Of a stretch of 11,304 nt of DNA, positions 1,384 to 6,109 are shown in pieces; the stretch's first letter is position 1, and the number at the start of each line of letters is the position of its first letter. Under the pieces are notes generated by a model, which saw only the letters and a list, made by a program, of their open reading frames with translations, searched no databases and was not told the origin of the DNA. This DNA comes from Candidatus Latescibacterota bacterium (GTDB lineage: Bacteria > JAAXHH01 > JACQVL01): positions 1-11,304 of the forward strand of contig JACQVL010000071.1 of the NCBI GenBank assembly GCA_016209865.1, given 5' to 3'. Made by a program: the position numbers and the translations under genes.

Positions 1384-3300
1384 TCATTCATACCGCAGCG
1401 CCTCCACCGGGTTTGTCAGCGCTGCCTTCATCGCCTGGCCACTGACCGTCAGCACGGCAATGACCAGCGCCAGCAGGGCCGCCAGGAGGAAGGGGCCCGG
1501 CCCGAGCTCGATGCGGTAGGCAAAGTTCTGCAACCACCGCTGCATCGCGTAATACGCAACCGGCCAGCCCAGACGTGTGACCGCCGATTCCGTGAGCACA
1601 TACGCCGCCTCCGGGTCGGTGCCGAAGGTGCGCCACAAAAAGCGACCGGCCACCAGGGTCATCCCCAGGGTGGTGACAAAATCTTCATCGGCTCCGACCG
1701 AGCACATCTCCACCGACTCGGTCATGGGTGCCTTCGCCGATTGGTACAGGCTATACCCCAGGGTGTTCAGACGGCCGGGCGCAAAGTTGGATCGGGTCAC
1801 CCCCAGCACGGCCGGGTGTTGTAACGCCTCCCGTTTAAACACCGGGTAGCGTTCAGCAAACGGGGTAAACGTCATTGGGATGATGACCAGTTGGTCCGGA
1901 TTCAGCCCCAACTGTTTGTTTCGGACGTAGTGCAGTTGCTGCACCACGATGCCGGTACAGATCAGCAAGGCAATGGTGATGGTGAACTGGACCACCACCA
2001 GCAGCTTGCGAAACCCGCTCCGTCCCCGGCCAGCCTGTCCCATCCTGGTGAGCACCGCCACCGGCCGAAACGCGGACAGTACGAACGCAGGGTACGCGCC
2101 GGCGGCAAGGCCGACGACCAGGGTGATGCCGGCAAGGCCGCCCAGGGCTGTCCCATTCGTCGCCAAGTGCCTGGGAATGGCTTTTCCGGCGAGGGTATTG
2201 AAGGTCGGCAGGAAGAGCATCACCATACCTACCGCCAGGAGGGCGGCGAGGCACGACACCAGGAGGGATTCGCCCAGGAATTGGACGATGAGCTGGCGGC
2301 GCTGGGCTCCCACCACCTTGCGAACTCTGACTTCTTTCGCGCGCATCGCCGCACGCGCGGTCGCCAGGTTCATGAAATTGATACAGGCGATCAGGAGAAT
2401 AAAAACGGCGATAGCCGAGAAGAGATAGATGGAGGTGACCTCGCTGTTGGCCGAGAGTTCACGTTCCAGATGCGAGTGTAAGTGGATCGCGGTAAGGGGT
2501 TGGAGGGAAAACCGCATCGTCACCCCGGCCGCGTGCAACTCGCTGCCGGCGTATTTCTCGACCAGCGCAGGGAGTTTCTGTTCGAGGCGCGACGGGTCAG
2601 CACCTGGGGGTAGAAGGACGTAGGTATAAAAATTATAGGGACTCCGCCAGCGCGTCAGGTAGGTCTGGTTCAGCTGCCGATCCAACTGTTCCTGGGTACC
2701 CATGGACGCCAGGATCTCGAATGTGAGATGGGAGTTCGGGGGGAGCGAGGGCATGACACCGGTCACTTCCAGATCCATACTCTCCTCCCCGCGGATCAGT
2801 TTCCCGATCGGTTCCTCATTTCCGAAGTATTTGCGGGCCACCGTCTCGGTGAGCACCACGGTAAACGGCCGCTGGAGCGCGGTGGCGGGATTCCCCTTGA
2901 GGAGCGGGATAAAAAAGACATCAAAGACGGTGGAATCCGCGAGGTAGAAGTTGGTCTCATAAAAACTTTTATCCTCATACCGGAGCATCCAGGCGGCGTT
3001 CGGGGGTTTGAGGCGGACCACACGCCGCACCTCGGGGAACTCCTGCCGCAGAGCCGGGGCTAATGGAGCGGGGGTAATGGCCAGGTGGGTCACACGGCCG
3101 GGTGCTCGTTCTTCCCGGACCACACGATAGATCTGATCCGCGTTCGTGTGGAAGCGATCATAACTGAGCTCGTATTGCACATAGAGCAAGATGAGTAAAC
3201 AGCAGGCGATGCCGATGGCCAGGCCGACGATGTTGAGCAGAGAGTAGCCCCGGTGTCTGAGGAGTGTTCTCACTGCGACCATCAGATAGCTTTTCAGCAT
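1384..3300 (-). CDS. FtsX/MacB-type ABC transporter permease with a probable internal in-frame deletion
   Basis: A 638-residue permease of the large FtsX-like class paired with MacB/LolD-type ATPases. N-terminal half: membrane segment 21-43, extracytoplasmic MacB_PCD-type domain about 44-285, then membrane segments about 288-312, 337-365 and 386-410. The second half starts with a membrane segment at about 432-455 and an extracytoplasmic region to about 577. It then jumps straight to the last membrane segment (602-620) and the family C-terminus NPVEALRYE. Full-length relatives are near 790-800 residues and carry a further extracytoplasmic part, two membrane helices and a cytoplasmic loop between these points. 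The fusion lies at residues 577-580, LGW|PVAYYAM, near nt 1564-1569: 'AVxxLGW' belongs to the extracytoplasmic domain and 'WPVAYYAMxRWLQ' to the last helix. The gene is otherwise open, with AGAGGG 5 nt before the ATG. Loss of two helices from the second FtsX domain should impair function, so it may be a cryptic pseudogene. Family assignment is sure; the deletion is inferred from remembered relatives. Confidence 0.88.
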   Translation of the reverse strand: MLKSYLMVAVRTLLRHRGYSLLNIVGLAIGIACCLLILLYVQYELSYDRFHTNADQIYRVVREERAPGRVTHLAITPAPLAPALRQEFPEVRRVVRLKPPNAAWMLRYEDKSFYETNFYLADSTVFDVFFIPLLKGNPATALQRPFTVVLTETVARKYFGNEEPIGKLIRGEESMDLEVTGVMPSLPPNSHLTFEILASMGTQEQLDRQLNQTYLTRWRSPYNFYTYVLLPPGADPSRLEQKLPALVEKYAGSELHAAGVTMRFSLQPLTAIHLHSHLERELSANSEVTSIYLFSAIAVFILLIACINFMNLATARAAMRAKEVRVRKVVGAQRRQLIVQFLGESLLVSCLAALLAVGMVMLFLPTFNTLAGKAIPRHLATNGTALGGLAGITLVVGLAAGAYPAFVLSAFRPVAVLTRMGQAGRGRSGFRKLLVVVQFTITIALLICTGIVVQQLHYVRNKQLGLNPDQLVIIPMTFTPFAERYPVFKREALQHPAVLGVTRSNFAPGRLNTLGYSLYQSAKAPMTESVEMCSVGADEDFVTTLGMTLVAGRFLWRTFGTDPEAAYVLTESAVTRLGWPVAYYAMQRWLQNFAYRIELGPGPFLLAALLALVIAVLTVSGQAMKAALTNPVEALRYE

Positions 3301-3352
3301 GATGACCCTCTGCTTCCCGAGTGAGAAGGTATGTCATTTCGCGTCCCTGGGA

Positions 3353-3424
3353 TCATTCATATCGGAGCGCATTCACTGGATTCGTCAGCGCTGTCGTGAT
3401 TGCCTGATCGCTGACTGTCAGGAC
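3353..3424 (-). pseudogene. C-terminal relic of a second FtsX-type permease
   Basis: Reading leftward from 3424, an open stretch of 23 codons ends in TGA (3353-3355). It encodes VLTVSDQAITTALTN followed by PVNALRYE. Of these, 18 of 23 residues match the last 23 residues of the permease at 1384-3300, and by my alignment about 56 of 72 bases match. No start codon or permease body precedes it; only about 36 nt separate it from the ATPase stop codon. I infer a second permease gene, formerly between the ATPase and the surviving permease, lost except for its tail. Operons with an ATPase followed by two FtsX-like permeases are known in related phyla. Confidence 0.8.
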
Positions 3425-3460
3425 CGGTGAGGCGACACGGTGCAGCCTGTCAGGGAGTGG

Positions 3461-4144
3461 CTACACACGGACGGCTTCCGGGAGATGGTCGCTGACGATA
3501 TGCCCATCAAACAGGTGGACGATCCGGTGCGCGTACTCCGCATGGGAAGGGGAATGCGTCACCATCACAATCGTCGTCCCCGTGTCATTCAAGCCGGTCA
3601 ACAACTGCATCACTTCCGCACTGTTGGCCGAATCCAAGTTCCCCGTCGGTTCGTCTGCGAGAATCAGTTTTGGCTGCCCGATCACCGCCCGGGCCACCGC
3701 CACCCGCTGCTGCTGGCCGCCGGAGAGCTGCTGGGGGAAATGGTTTTTGCGGGGGAGGATCTGCATCTGGTCCAGCAGGGTTTCCACCCGTTTCCTTCGC
3801 TCGGACACCCCCAGGTACAGCAGCGGCAACTCCACGTTCTCGTACACGGTGAGTTCATCGATCAGGTTGAAGCTCTGGAACACAAACCCGATGCTGGCCT
3901 TGCGGAGATTCGCCCGCTGACGTTCGGAATAGTGGGAGACCTCATGCTCGAGAAAGCGGTACTGGCCATCAGTCGGGTTATCGAGCAGGCCGAGGAGGTT
4001 TAACAGAGTCGATTTCCCACAGCCCGAGGGCCCCATGATCGCCACGAACTCCCCGGCCTGGATCTCCAGGTTCACGTTGTTTAACGCTGTCGTTTCCACT
4101 TCTTCCGTCCGGTAGAGTTTCTTCAGGTTCGTCGTCTTGATCAT
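3461..4144 (-). CDS. ABC transporter ATP-binding protein, MacB/LolD type
   Basis: A 227-residue ATPase of normal length. Counting from the ATG at 4144: Walker A GPSGCGKST at 38-46, Q-loop Q90 (FVFQSFNL), signature LSGGQQQR at 140-147, Walker B LILADE at 160-165, D-loop NLDS at 169-172 and H-loop H197 (MVTHS). The protein looks fully functional. Such subunits energise FtsX-type permeases in efflux of macrolides, peptides or lipoproteins (mechanotransmission). An upstream in-frame ATG (4174) would add ten residues unlike the family. The 4144 start has AAGGAG (4152-4157) 7 nt before it and begins with the usual MIKTTNLKKLY. It follows a relic membrane-fusion protein and precedes a relic and a shortened permease, so its partners may be absent here. 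The substrate is unknown. Confidence 0.93.
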   Translation of the reverse strand: MIKTTNLKKLYRTEEVETTALNNVNLEIQAGEFVAIMGPSGCGKSTLLNLLGLLDNPTDGQYRFLEHEVSHYSERQRANLRKASIGFVFQSFNLIDELTVYENVELPLLYLGVSERRKRVETLLDQMQILPRKNHFPQQLSGGQQQRVAVARAVIGQPKLILADEPTGNLDSANSAEVMQLLTGLNDTGTTIVMVTHSPSHAEYAHRIVHLFDGHIVSDHLPEAVRV

Positions 4145-4193
4145 GCTCGGGCTCCTTTTTATGGAGAGAAACATGGCGGATGAACGCTGCCGA

Positions 4194-4304
4194 CCGGAGA
4201 TTATTGATCTGCTCGAAGAGTTGGGCCTCGCGGTACATCACATCGAGTTGGAGGTTGGTGTTCGACAACTGCAGGATAGAATCCCCCTGTTTGCCCTCAA
4301 CGAC
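4194..4304 (-). pseudogene. Relic of a HlyD/MacA-type membrane fusion protein
   Basis: One minus-strand frame encodes about 37 codons, VVEGKQGDSILQLSNTNLQL then DVMYREAQLFEQINNLR. This resembles the part of HlyD/RND-type periplasmic adaptors where the lipoyl-like half (EGxxVKKGDxILRLSNT) runs into the coiled coil (xxREAQLFEQINNLR). Neither a signal anchor nor the remaining domains are found on either side. Family likeness ends just before the ribosome binding site of the ATPase gene. The adaptor gene is expected immediately upstream of the ATPase in tripartite efflux operons, so position agrees with the assignment. The family match is from memory of the motif, not from a search. Confidence 0.65.
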
Positions 4305-4372
4305 CGCTTCCTGACGACGCCTCGATGGTGTCGTGACGAGATGCGACGAGAGGAGTTGTTGGCGCTGGCAGT

Positions 4373-4489
4373 ATCACAGATGACACAGATGAACACAGGA
4401 TGACACTGATCCCCTCCACCGTCCCCACCGTCCCCTATCGCGCAGATGGGCAACGGCGTGTCGCATCAGCCATCTGTGTCATCTGTGAT
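4373..4489. repeat. 19-bp perfect inverted repeat of the 'CACAGATGACACAGATG' type
   Basis: ATCACAGATGACACAGATG (4373-4391) recurs as its exact reverse complement at 4471-4489, with a 79-base spacer that shows no gene. Arms built of repeated CACAGATGA-like units occur as dispersed intergenic repeats in many environmental bacteria. It lies just upstream of the adaptor relic and could be a footprint of rearrangement. Confidence 0.75.
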
Positions 4490-4518
4490 CCCGTGATAAC
4501 TCTGCTTGCTCGTCACTT

Positions 4519-4633
4519 GTCCGCCCGCCCATGAATGGGCGTGCTCATAGGATCAAGCCCCTTCGGGGCTCCATCCCAGCCCCGTGCGCGGGGCTTCGTA
4601 CGATTAGCCCGCCCATTCGATGGGCGGGCGGAC
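4519..4633. repeat. Composite nested palindromic element (REP/MITE-like)
   Basis: A 115-base block bounded by a 14-bp perfect inverted repeat, GTCCGCCCGCCCAT (4519-4532) and ATGGGCGGGCGGAC (4620-4633). Each outer arm also starts a small local palindrome (CGCCCAT/ATGGGCG). Inside are two adjacent hairpins with identical arms AGCCCC/GGGGCT: 4556-4561 with 4565-4570 (3-nt loop) and 4578-4583 with 4590-4595 (6-nt loop). No reading frame in it looks coding. In a leftward transcript from the promoter at 4671-4698 it would lie in the leader RNA. Confidence 0.75.
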
Positions 4634-4670
4634 GAGAACGATGGTTGTATAGAGGGGGATACGGAGCTGT

Positions 4671-4698
4671 ATTATACAGGAATCCAGCGGGCTGTCAA
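4671..4698 (-). promoter_or_regulatory. Sigma70-type promoter with both consensus hexamers, facing left
   Basis: On the minus strand TTGACA (plus 4693-4698, tgtcaa) and TATAAT (plus 4671-4676, attata) are separated by 16 bp. Both hexamers match the consensus exactly; the spacer is one base short of the optimum. Transcription would start near 4664 and run left through the composite palindrome into the adaptor relic and ATPase. It sits after the end of the ceramidase-like gene, where a new transcription unit would be expected to begin. Confidence 0.65.
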
Positions 4699-4713
4699 TG
4701 GGGAAGATTTGGA

Positions 4714-4741
4714 GTAGGGGCGCAGAATTCTGCGCCCCTAC
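4714..4741. repeat. 28-bp perfect palindrome between operons
   Basis: GTAGGGGCGCAGAA is followed at once by its reverse complement, ending 3 nt past the stop codon of the ceramidase-like gene. The ends GTAGGGGC/GCCCCTAC match those of the element at 6123-6178, while the core differs. It could fold to a strong hairpin at the mRNA 3' end, but no U-tract follows on either strand, so a rho-independent terminator is not well supported. Confidence 0.8.
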
Positions 4742-4744
4742 TTC

Positions 4745-6109
4745 TCACCTCCACAGTGCCCCGATCAGCTCGACCGCCTTGTCGACGAGCTGCGGGCCGC
4801 CGGCCGGGCCGACGCGCGTCCACGGACCGGGGCTCACCTCGTAGCCGCCCTGTTCCCACGCGACCGGCGTGGTCAGGTAGCCGAGCCAGTCGTTCGCGTA
4901 CCCGACGACGAACGTGGACGGCGCGGCGGAGCGCGCCTTGATGTCCAGACCGAGGCCGCAGAACGGCTCGCCCGGCAGGGCGACGAGCGCGGCATCGCCC
5001 AGGCGCATGACCTGCACTTCCGCCGGGATCGGGTCGGTGCCCCGGTCGATCAGGATCAACGCTTCCTCGACCATCCGCCGCTCCCTGGCGAACCGGGCCC
5101 GGTCCTCGTCCGTCGCCGCCGCGTCCCGCTTCCGGCCGGCGTCCTCATGCGCTCGCTGAGCCGGCTCGCGGGCCGGCAGGTCGCGCACGGCGAGGGAGAG
5201 CACGTCCGACTTCACCGCCACGACCGGCTGACTCGCTGGATAATCCGGGGCGCGCATCGCGCCCGCCAGTTTGATCACCTCGCCGCCGAGCATCAGGCCA
5301 TACCGCTGGACATCGTTGAAATCGCGCGTATCCCCGCGCACCGGGTTTTGATCCCCGCAGGCGGCCTGGAGGAACAGGCTGTTCTCGCAGCCCGGCAGGG
5401 CACGCTCGACGAGCGCCATCGCCGCGCCCGGAAAATCCGCCGAGACGAGGGGCTGCACCTGCACGGTGACCGGATGGCAGGCGAAGTTGGACAGAACGGT
5501 GCACGTGCCCCCGTCGTGCGCCTCCAGCAGGAGGACGCCCACCCGGTGATCGATCGTCCCCCAGTCGGCGATCTCATCGTCGGGCGGGCGGTTGAGCCAC
5601 TGGTAGAGGCGTCCATTCTTGCCGACGATCCGACGGCTCCATGACAGCCCGTGAACTTCCCCGGTGCCGATCTTCAGCGTGTGCGGCCTGCGGCGCTCGA
5701 CCGCCATCGACGCCGCTGACGCGAGTTGATCGATCAACACCTCCAGCCAGGGACCGGCCGCCGGGGTGTCCAGCAACCGGCGCAGGTGGATGGTTTCTGG
5801 GGTCGAATGCGCATGGCTGGATGCCAGCATCACATGCTCAGCCGGCACGCCCGTTCGCTGATGAACCCGCTGGCGCACCTCGCGCGTGAAGTTCCGGTCA
5901 GGCCCCAGGATGGCGTTGCTGAAGCCGATCGAGTCCGCCGCGATCACCACCGCCTGCGTCGTCCCGTCGTCGACCGCCACCGCCCGCGCGTACAGCGGGT
6001 CATGCACCCCGTGAAACAACGCGTGCCGGGGTTCGTAGCCCAAGTACGGGATCGTCAACGGCGGGGTAATGTCAACTCTGGCTGTGCCCGCCTGGAAGGT
6101 CGGGGTCAT
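4745..6109 (-). CDS. Neutral/alkaline ceramidase-like hydrolase (N-terminal domain family)
   Basis: A 454-residue protein like the N-terminal catalytic domain of neutral ceramidases, which are zinc amidases. Counting from the ATG at 6109: AGTARVDITPP (7-17) is the usual opening; SSHAHSTPE (97-105) gives the first zinc/active-site histidines; NFACHPVTV (208-216) gives the second (H212); LPGE (378-381) and the ANDWLGY...GGYE region (405-424) carry the Glu and Tyr ligands. The segment ACGDQNPVRGD (250-260) replaces the GD-x-S-P-N motif holding the catalytic serine of true ceramidases, so the substrate probably differs. No signal peptide is visible, and the C-terminal domain of ~650-residue ceramidases is absent. 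A GTG at 6163 would add 18 residues translated from a repeat; the ATG at 6109 has GGAGG 7 nt upstream and fits the family. It is the last gene of the right-hand cluster. Confidence 0.87.
   Translation of the reverse strand: MTPTFQAGTARVDITPPLTIPYLGYEPRHALFHGVHDPLYARAVAVDDGTTQAVVIAADSIGFSNAILGPDRNFTREVRQRVHQRTGVPAEHVMLASSHAHSTPETIHLRRLLDTPAAGPWLEVLIDQLASAASMAVERRRPHTLKIGTGEVHGLSWSRRIVGKNGRLYQWLNRPPDDEIADWGTIDHRVGVLLLEAHDGGTCTVLSNFACHPVTVQVQPLVSADFPGAAMALVERALPGCENSLFLQAACGDQNPVRGDTRDFNDVQRYGLMLGGEVIKLAGAMRAPDYPASQPVVAVKSDVLSLAVRDLPAREPAQRAHEDAGRKRDAAATDEDRARFARERRMVEEALILIDRGTDPIPAEVQVMRLGDAALVALPGEPFCGLGLDIKARSAAPSTFVVGYANDWLGYLTTPVAWEQGGYEVSPGPWTRVGPAGGPQLVDKAVELIGALWR

Follow-up and report, generated by a model that had tools for sequence, protein, structure and literature searches.

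How does a complete transport ATPase come to stand among fragments of an adaptor and of permeases, and what might keep it there? The window, by which we mean the whole stretch of DNA analysed, is the entire 11,304-bp contig C15 of a 3.75 Mb bin that comprises 356 contigs and is 83% complete. On its minus strand it carries, in order of transcription, an adaptor scrap, the ATPase, the tail of one permease and a 638-codon second permease. The sequence-only reading had recognised in this arrangement the skeleton of an adaptor-ATPase-permease operon, and intact operons present in other genomes bear this out. The locus is a decayed type VII ABC exporter operon of a known kind, similar to DarBCD and ADOP systems. 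We consider it probable that the operon was broken recently by four or more lesions, that its pump is inactive and that its ATPase was spared by chance; ordinary operon decay within one metagenome-assembled genome is likewise the probable account of the locus as a whole.

What did the operon look like before it was damaged? Adaptor, ATPase and permease genes follow one another around the ATPases of several relatives (L152, L154, L155, L157 and L158), so that intact counterparts with the same gene order exist, encoding an adaptor of 417 aa, an ATPase of 229 aa and permeases of about 800 aa. In L152 the 417-aa adaptor and 229-aa ATPase precede five permeases; four of them measure 789-804 aa, and the fifth runs off the end of the stretch. 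Between adaptor and ATPase this otherwise canonical operon has a 130-aa frame (3678-4070 of L152) that resembles proteins with a four-helix bundle. Relatives in the genome-contig scan come from Latescibacterota, KSB1, Aminicenantes, Bacteroidota and others, with no sister genome among them; a search of the bin for 16S rRNA gave no hit. We envision that the original operon, with the DarBCD and ADOP families as its nearest kin, encoded an adaptor, an ATPase and two double-unit permeases of the FtsX/MacB-like kind, and that its function, as far as homology can tell, was most likely type VII ABC exporter-like.

The likeness to characterised systems has clear bounds. DarBCD, the darobactin exporter (NCBIfam NF038008, NF038010, NF038007), is an ABC transporter with DarC as its membrane fusion protein (PMC9055067). 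Its ATPase, adaptor and double-unit permease are separate genes, as in the present operon type. DarD is the best NCBIfam match of the window's ATPase (272.7 bits, below the cut-off of 375), DarC is the best match of an intact relative's adaptor, again below the curated cut-off, and DarB is the second match of the window's permease after ADOP (113.2, cut-off 700), so that both DarB and DarD scores fall short of equivalog assignment. None of the annotated neighbours was recognised as a darobactin gene, and the window's operon, unlike DarBCD, is broken. ADOP (TIGR03434) is the permease's best match at 183.7, below the cut-off of 622.3, which the permeases of intact relatives also fail to reach (273.0 and 330.3); these relatives carry two MacB_PCD-FtsX units per chain, as ADOP proteins do, whereas one unit is mostly deleted in the window. 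The type VII system MacAB-TolC has the adaptor and the MacB-like architecture in common with this operon, and the window's ATPase resembles the MacB ATPase domain; MacB, however, fuses its ATPase to a single four-helix permease unit and forms a dimer, whereas here the genes are separate and each chain holds two permease units (PMC5985334).

How much of the operon has been lost? The adaptor relic (4194-4310, minus strand) comprises about 39 codons, whose counterpart in intact adaptors is approximately residues 91-129 of a DarC/HlyD-like protein of 417 aa. Within it, 34 residues are 79% identical to residues 96-129 of the 417-aa L152 adaptor (E 3.6e-15, in a small database), and a search of the whole bin lands on the same relic (75% over 36 aa, adaptor residues 96-131, E 2.8e-11); the relic alone has no match in Pfam. 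An HlyD-like remnant of about 37 codons had been described before, and this stands with little change in size, but the remnant is an internal fragment with both ends gone, about 90 codons at the start and about 285 at the end. The interval from the adaptor scrap up to the promoter-like site contains two small palindromic elements. One (4373-4489) is 117 bp long and is bounded by perfect inverted repeats of 19 nt, with a similar end pair in the same genome at G000:C262:4324-4441 and single ends on C109, C135, C314, C73 and C288; the other is a 121-bp palindromic repeat element (4516-4636) with related copies on C165 and C347. Conceivably, such repeats were involved in breaking the 5' end of the adaptor gene. 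A perfect 30-nt palindrome, AGTAGGGGCGCAGAATTCTGCGCCCCTACT, lies further upstream at 4713-4742, where it separates the promoter-like site from the ceramidase-like gene, and has a near copy on C347 (L192).

Of the first permease only the final 22 codons and the stop remain (LTVSDQAITTALTNPVNALRYE*; 3353-3421, minus strand), as had been proposed. This tail is mostly 41-68% identical to the final 22 residues of full-length permeases, and 17 of its 22 residues are identical to the second permease's own tail. The second permease (1384-3300, minus strand; 638 aa, FtsX/MacB_PCD-type) matches relatives in two blocks, residues 1 to about 582 and 577-638, and has one MacB_PCD and one FtsX match where intact relatives have two of each. 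An internal gap had been noted here and is confirmed, although alignment with relatives puts it at about 170 residues rather than about 150, between TESAVTRLG and WPVAYYAMQRW. The junction is in frame and falls in the codons for LGWP, with G578-W579-P580 (GGC TGG CCG) at 1561-1569 on the minus strand. With helices assigned from the alignment, the deletion would have removed the end of the second periplasmic domain, TM6, the second coupling-helix region and the first half of TM7, and by helix count it would leave the C-terminus inside, on the correct side. Motion from the MacB ATPase is transmitted by the major coupling helix, which each unit carries between TM2 and TM3 (PMC5985334). An AlphaFold2 model of the shortened protein is confident in the N-terminal half and falls below a pLDDT of 50 around the junction (578-599). 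Another 638-aa permease frame, in G117:C270, was rejected as a second shortened case, being a full-length gene with a frameshift. That gene (L206) lies within a permease array and carries the single frameshift, a sign that arrays occasionally lose members.

Because the adaptor lost both ends, in addition to the losses from the first and the second permease, the operon has, on the evidence of the alignments, at least four lesions and has lost roughly 4 kb. The three deletions counted in the sequence-only reading were thus an undercount. The lesions would have taken both adaptor ends, nearly all of the first permease and an internal piece of the second, leaving a pump that presumably no longer works. 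Set against the parts of a type VII exporter, the window retains a complete MacB/LolD/FtsE-type ABC ATPase, about 39 of 417 codons of the HlyD-type adaptor, and, in place of complete permeases with MacB_PCD and FtsX, one full unit with a second that lacks about 170 residues, beside a 22-codon tail.

The ATPase itself (3461-4144, minus strand; 227 aa, DarD/MacB/LolD type by Pfam, alignment and NCBIfam) had been called complete, and rightly: it matches Pfam ABC_tran over positions 1-136 of 137 and aligns end to end with its relatives. Its start is probably at 4144 and not at 4174, judging from an RBS-like AAGGAG just 5' of the former (4152-4157, minus strand). Upstream of the operon remains lies a sigma-70-like promoter-like site on the minus strand, TTGACA-16-TATAAT (4671-4698), which agrees with the consensus at 12 of 12 positions and is assigned by that match only. 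The gene departs from its relatives at 3 of the 120 columns conserved in 90% of them, within the spread of intact relatives. The closest relatives are 67-79% identical and occur in genomes both inside and outside the same order; the nearest, at about 78% protein identity, belong to other families, and we judge synonymous sites to be saturated at this distance.

How old is the damage? The remnants, about 700 codons in all, contain neither a stop nor a frameshift. Roughly 200 of 6,300 possible single changes would create a stop (the 69-bp tail was read one frame off in this count, a negligible share), so that at a neutral divergence of about 4.5% per site or above the probability of finding zero stops would be below 0.05; this age estimate is an upper bound on neutral divergence only. 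Among 57 columns that 90% of relatives conserve, the second permease differs at 3; the relatives' mean is 4.5%, and 36% of them depart at least as much, with 204 permeases of 760-870 aa available for comparison. Third-position GC is 0.76 in the permease and 0.80 in the ATPase, similar to the 0.71 to 0.87 of the contig's other genes. The damage is therefore probably young, because reading frames are undisturbed and conserved columns are kept as in intact relatives, which supports the earlier suggestion of recent decay. Strictly, the choice is between young decay and continuing selection on some part of the locus. The second permease's frame, open over 638 codons, and the well-conserved ATPase tell against the decay reading to the extent that they also fit continued use.

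Might the ATPase then be kept to power permeases encoded elsewhere, with the local adaptor and permeases dispensable? We regard this as unlikely here. Sharing is plausible in the group, because the pieces often lie apart in relatives and permeases outnumber close ATPases: L153 and L159 have adaptor-ATPase pairs without an adjoining permease, L042 and L045 have permease arrays without an ATPase, and most genomes of the same order (G002-G010 and G012-G015) hold about 35-80 candidate double-unit permeases each and only 0-3 close ATPases, often at separate loci. The promoter-like and RBS-like sites of the window also remain. Such a role, raised in the sequence-only reading, thus finds precedent in how relatives place their genes, but nothing shows use in this genome. 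Apart from those of the window, the double-unit permeases found in the bin are all distant ADOP-type ones with 26-33% identity (one of 801 aa on C341, another cut by the end of C220), and the one on C220 adjoins an adaptor and an ATPase of its own, the latter 55% identical to the window's. The local adaptor, moreover, has itself been destroyed. Chance is enough to explain why the ATPase was spared: when four deletions of the observed sizes were placed at random on a model operon, it escaped in 29% of trials, and therefore no selection is needed and survival alone proves nothing. A literature search on ADOP orphan permeases, shared ATPases and orphan ATPases found no papers. That selection maintains the ATPase as a free-standing motor for distant permeases, and that the operon shows how a shared ATPase originates through loss of its partners, seems to us improbable. 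Under the favoured account of chance survival after recent deletions, the ATPase may still be produced, deprived of its own partners.

The junctions are known from the assembled contig alone, the window being a whole contig of a fragmented and incomplete bin, and the gaps could be artefacts of metagenome assembly. We think this very doubtful. An artefact would have to account for at least four separate gaps inside a single operon whose neighbours seem undamaged: GDPD, ceramidase-like, DegT aminotransferase, TIM-barrel, Gfo/Idh and Ldh2 genes flank the operon, and their Pfam matches span most of the model in each case, except that of the ceramidase-like gene, which covers the first 234 of 509 positions. 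Direct repeats within 3300-4760 are at most 13 nt long, and the lost adaptor and permease parts lie on no other contig of the bin. The composition of the window also fits its bin, with a GC content of 62.7% and a tetranucleotide distance to the mean of 0.094, compared with 0.068 to 0.223 for 20 other stretches. A second decayed set on contig C299, proposed from apparent stops in the matches, was rejected, as the frames listed there are open. The same contig carries a ribonucleotide-reductase-like frame, apparently with intein-like stretches (L180 6500-9340; G000:C299).

Least credible is the alternative in which the second permease functions in miniature and the short pieces are not relics at all. 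Its frame is open, and by helix count the in-frame deletion keeps the C-terminus on the side where it belongs; but TM6, the second coupling-helix region and half of TM7 have been lost, model confidence is low around the junction, and none of the relatives listed in the whole-genome searches matches through residue 638 unbroken.

The decay of this operon, routine in itself, provides a clear example of erosion by deletion. The wider question, raised by relatives in whose genomes double-unit permeases abound and matching ATPases are few, often at separate loci, is whether one ATPase serves many permeases.
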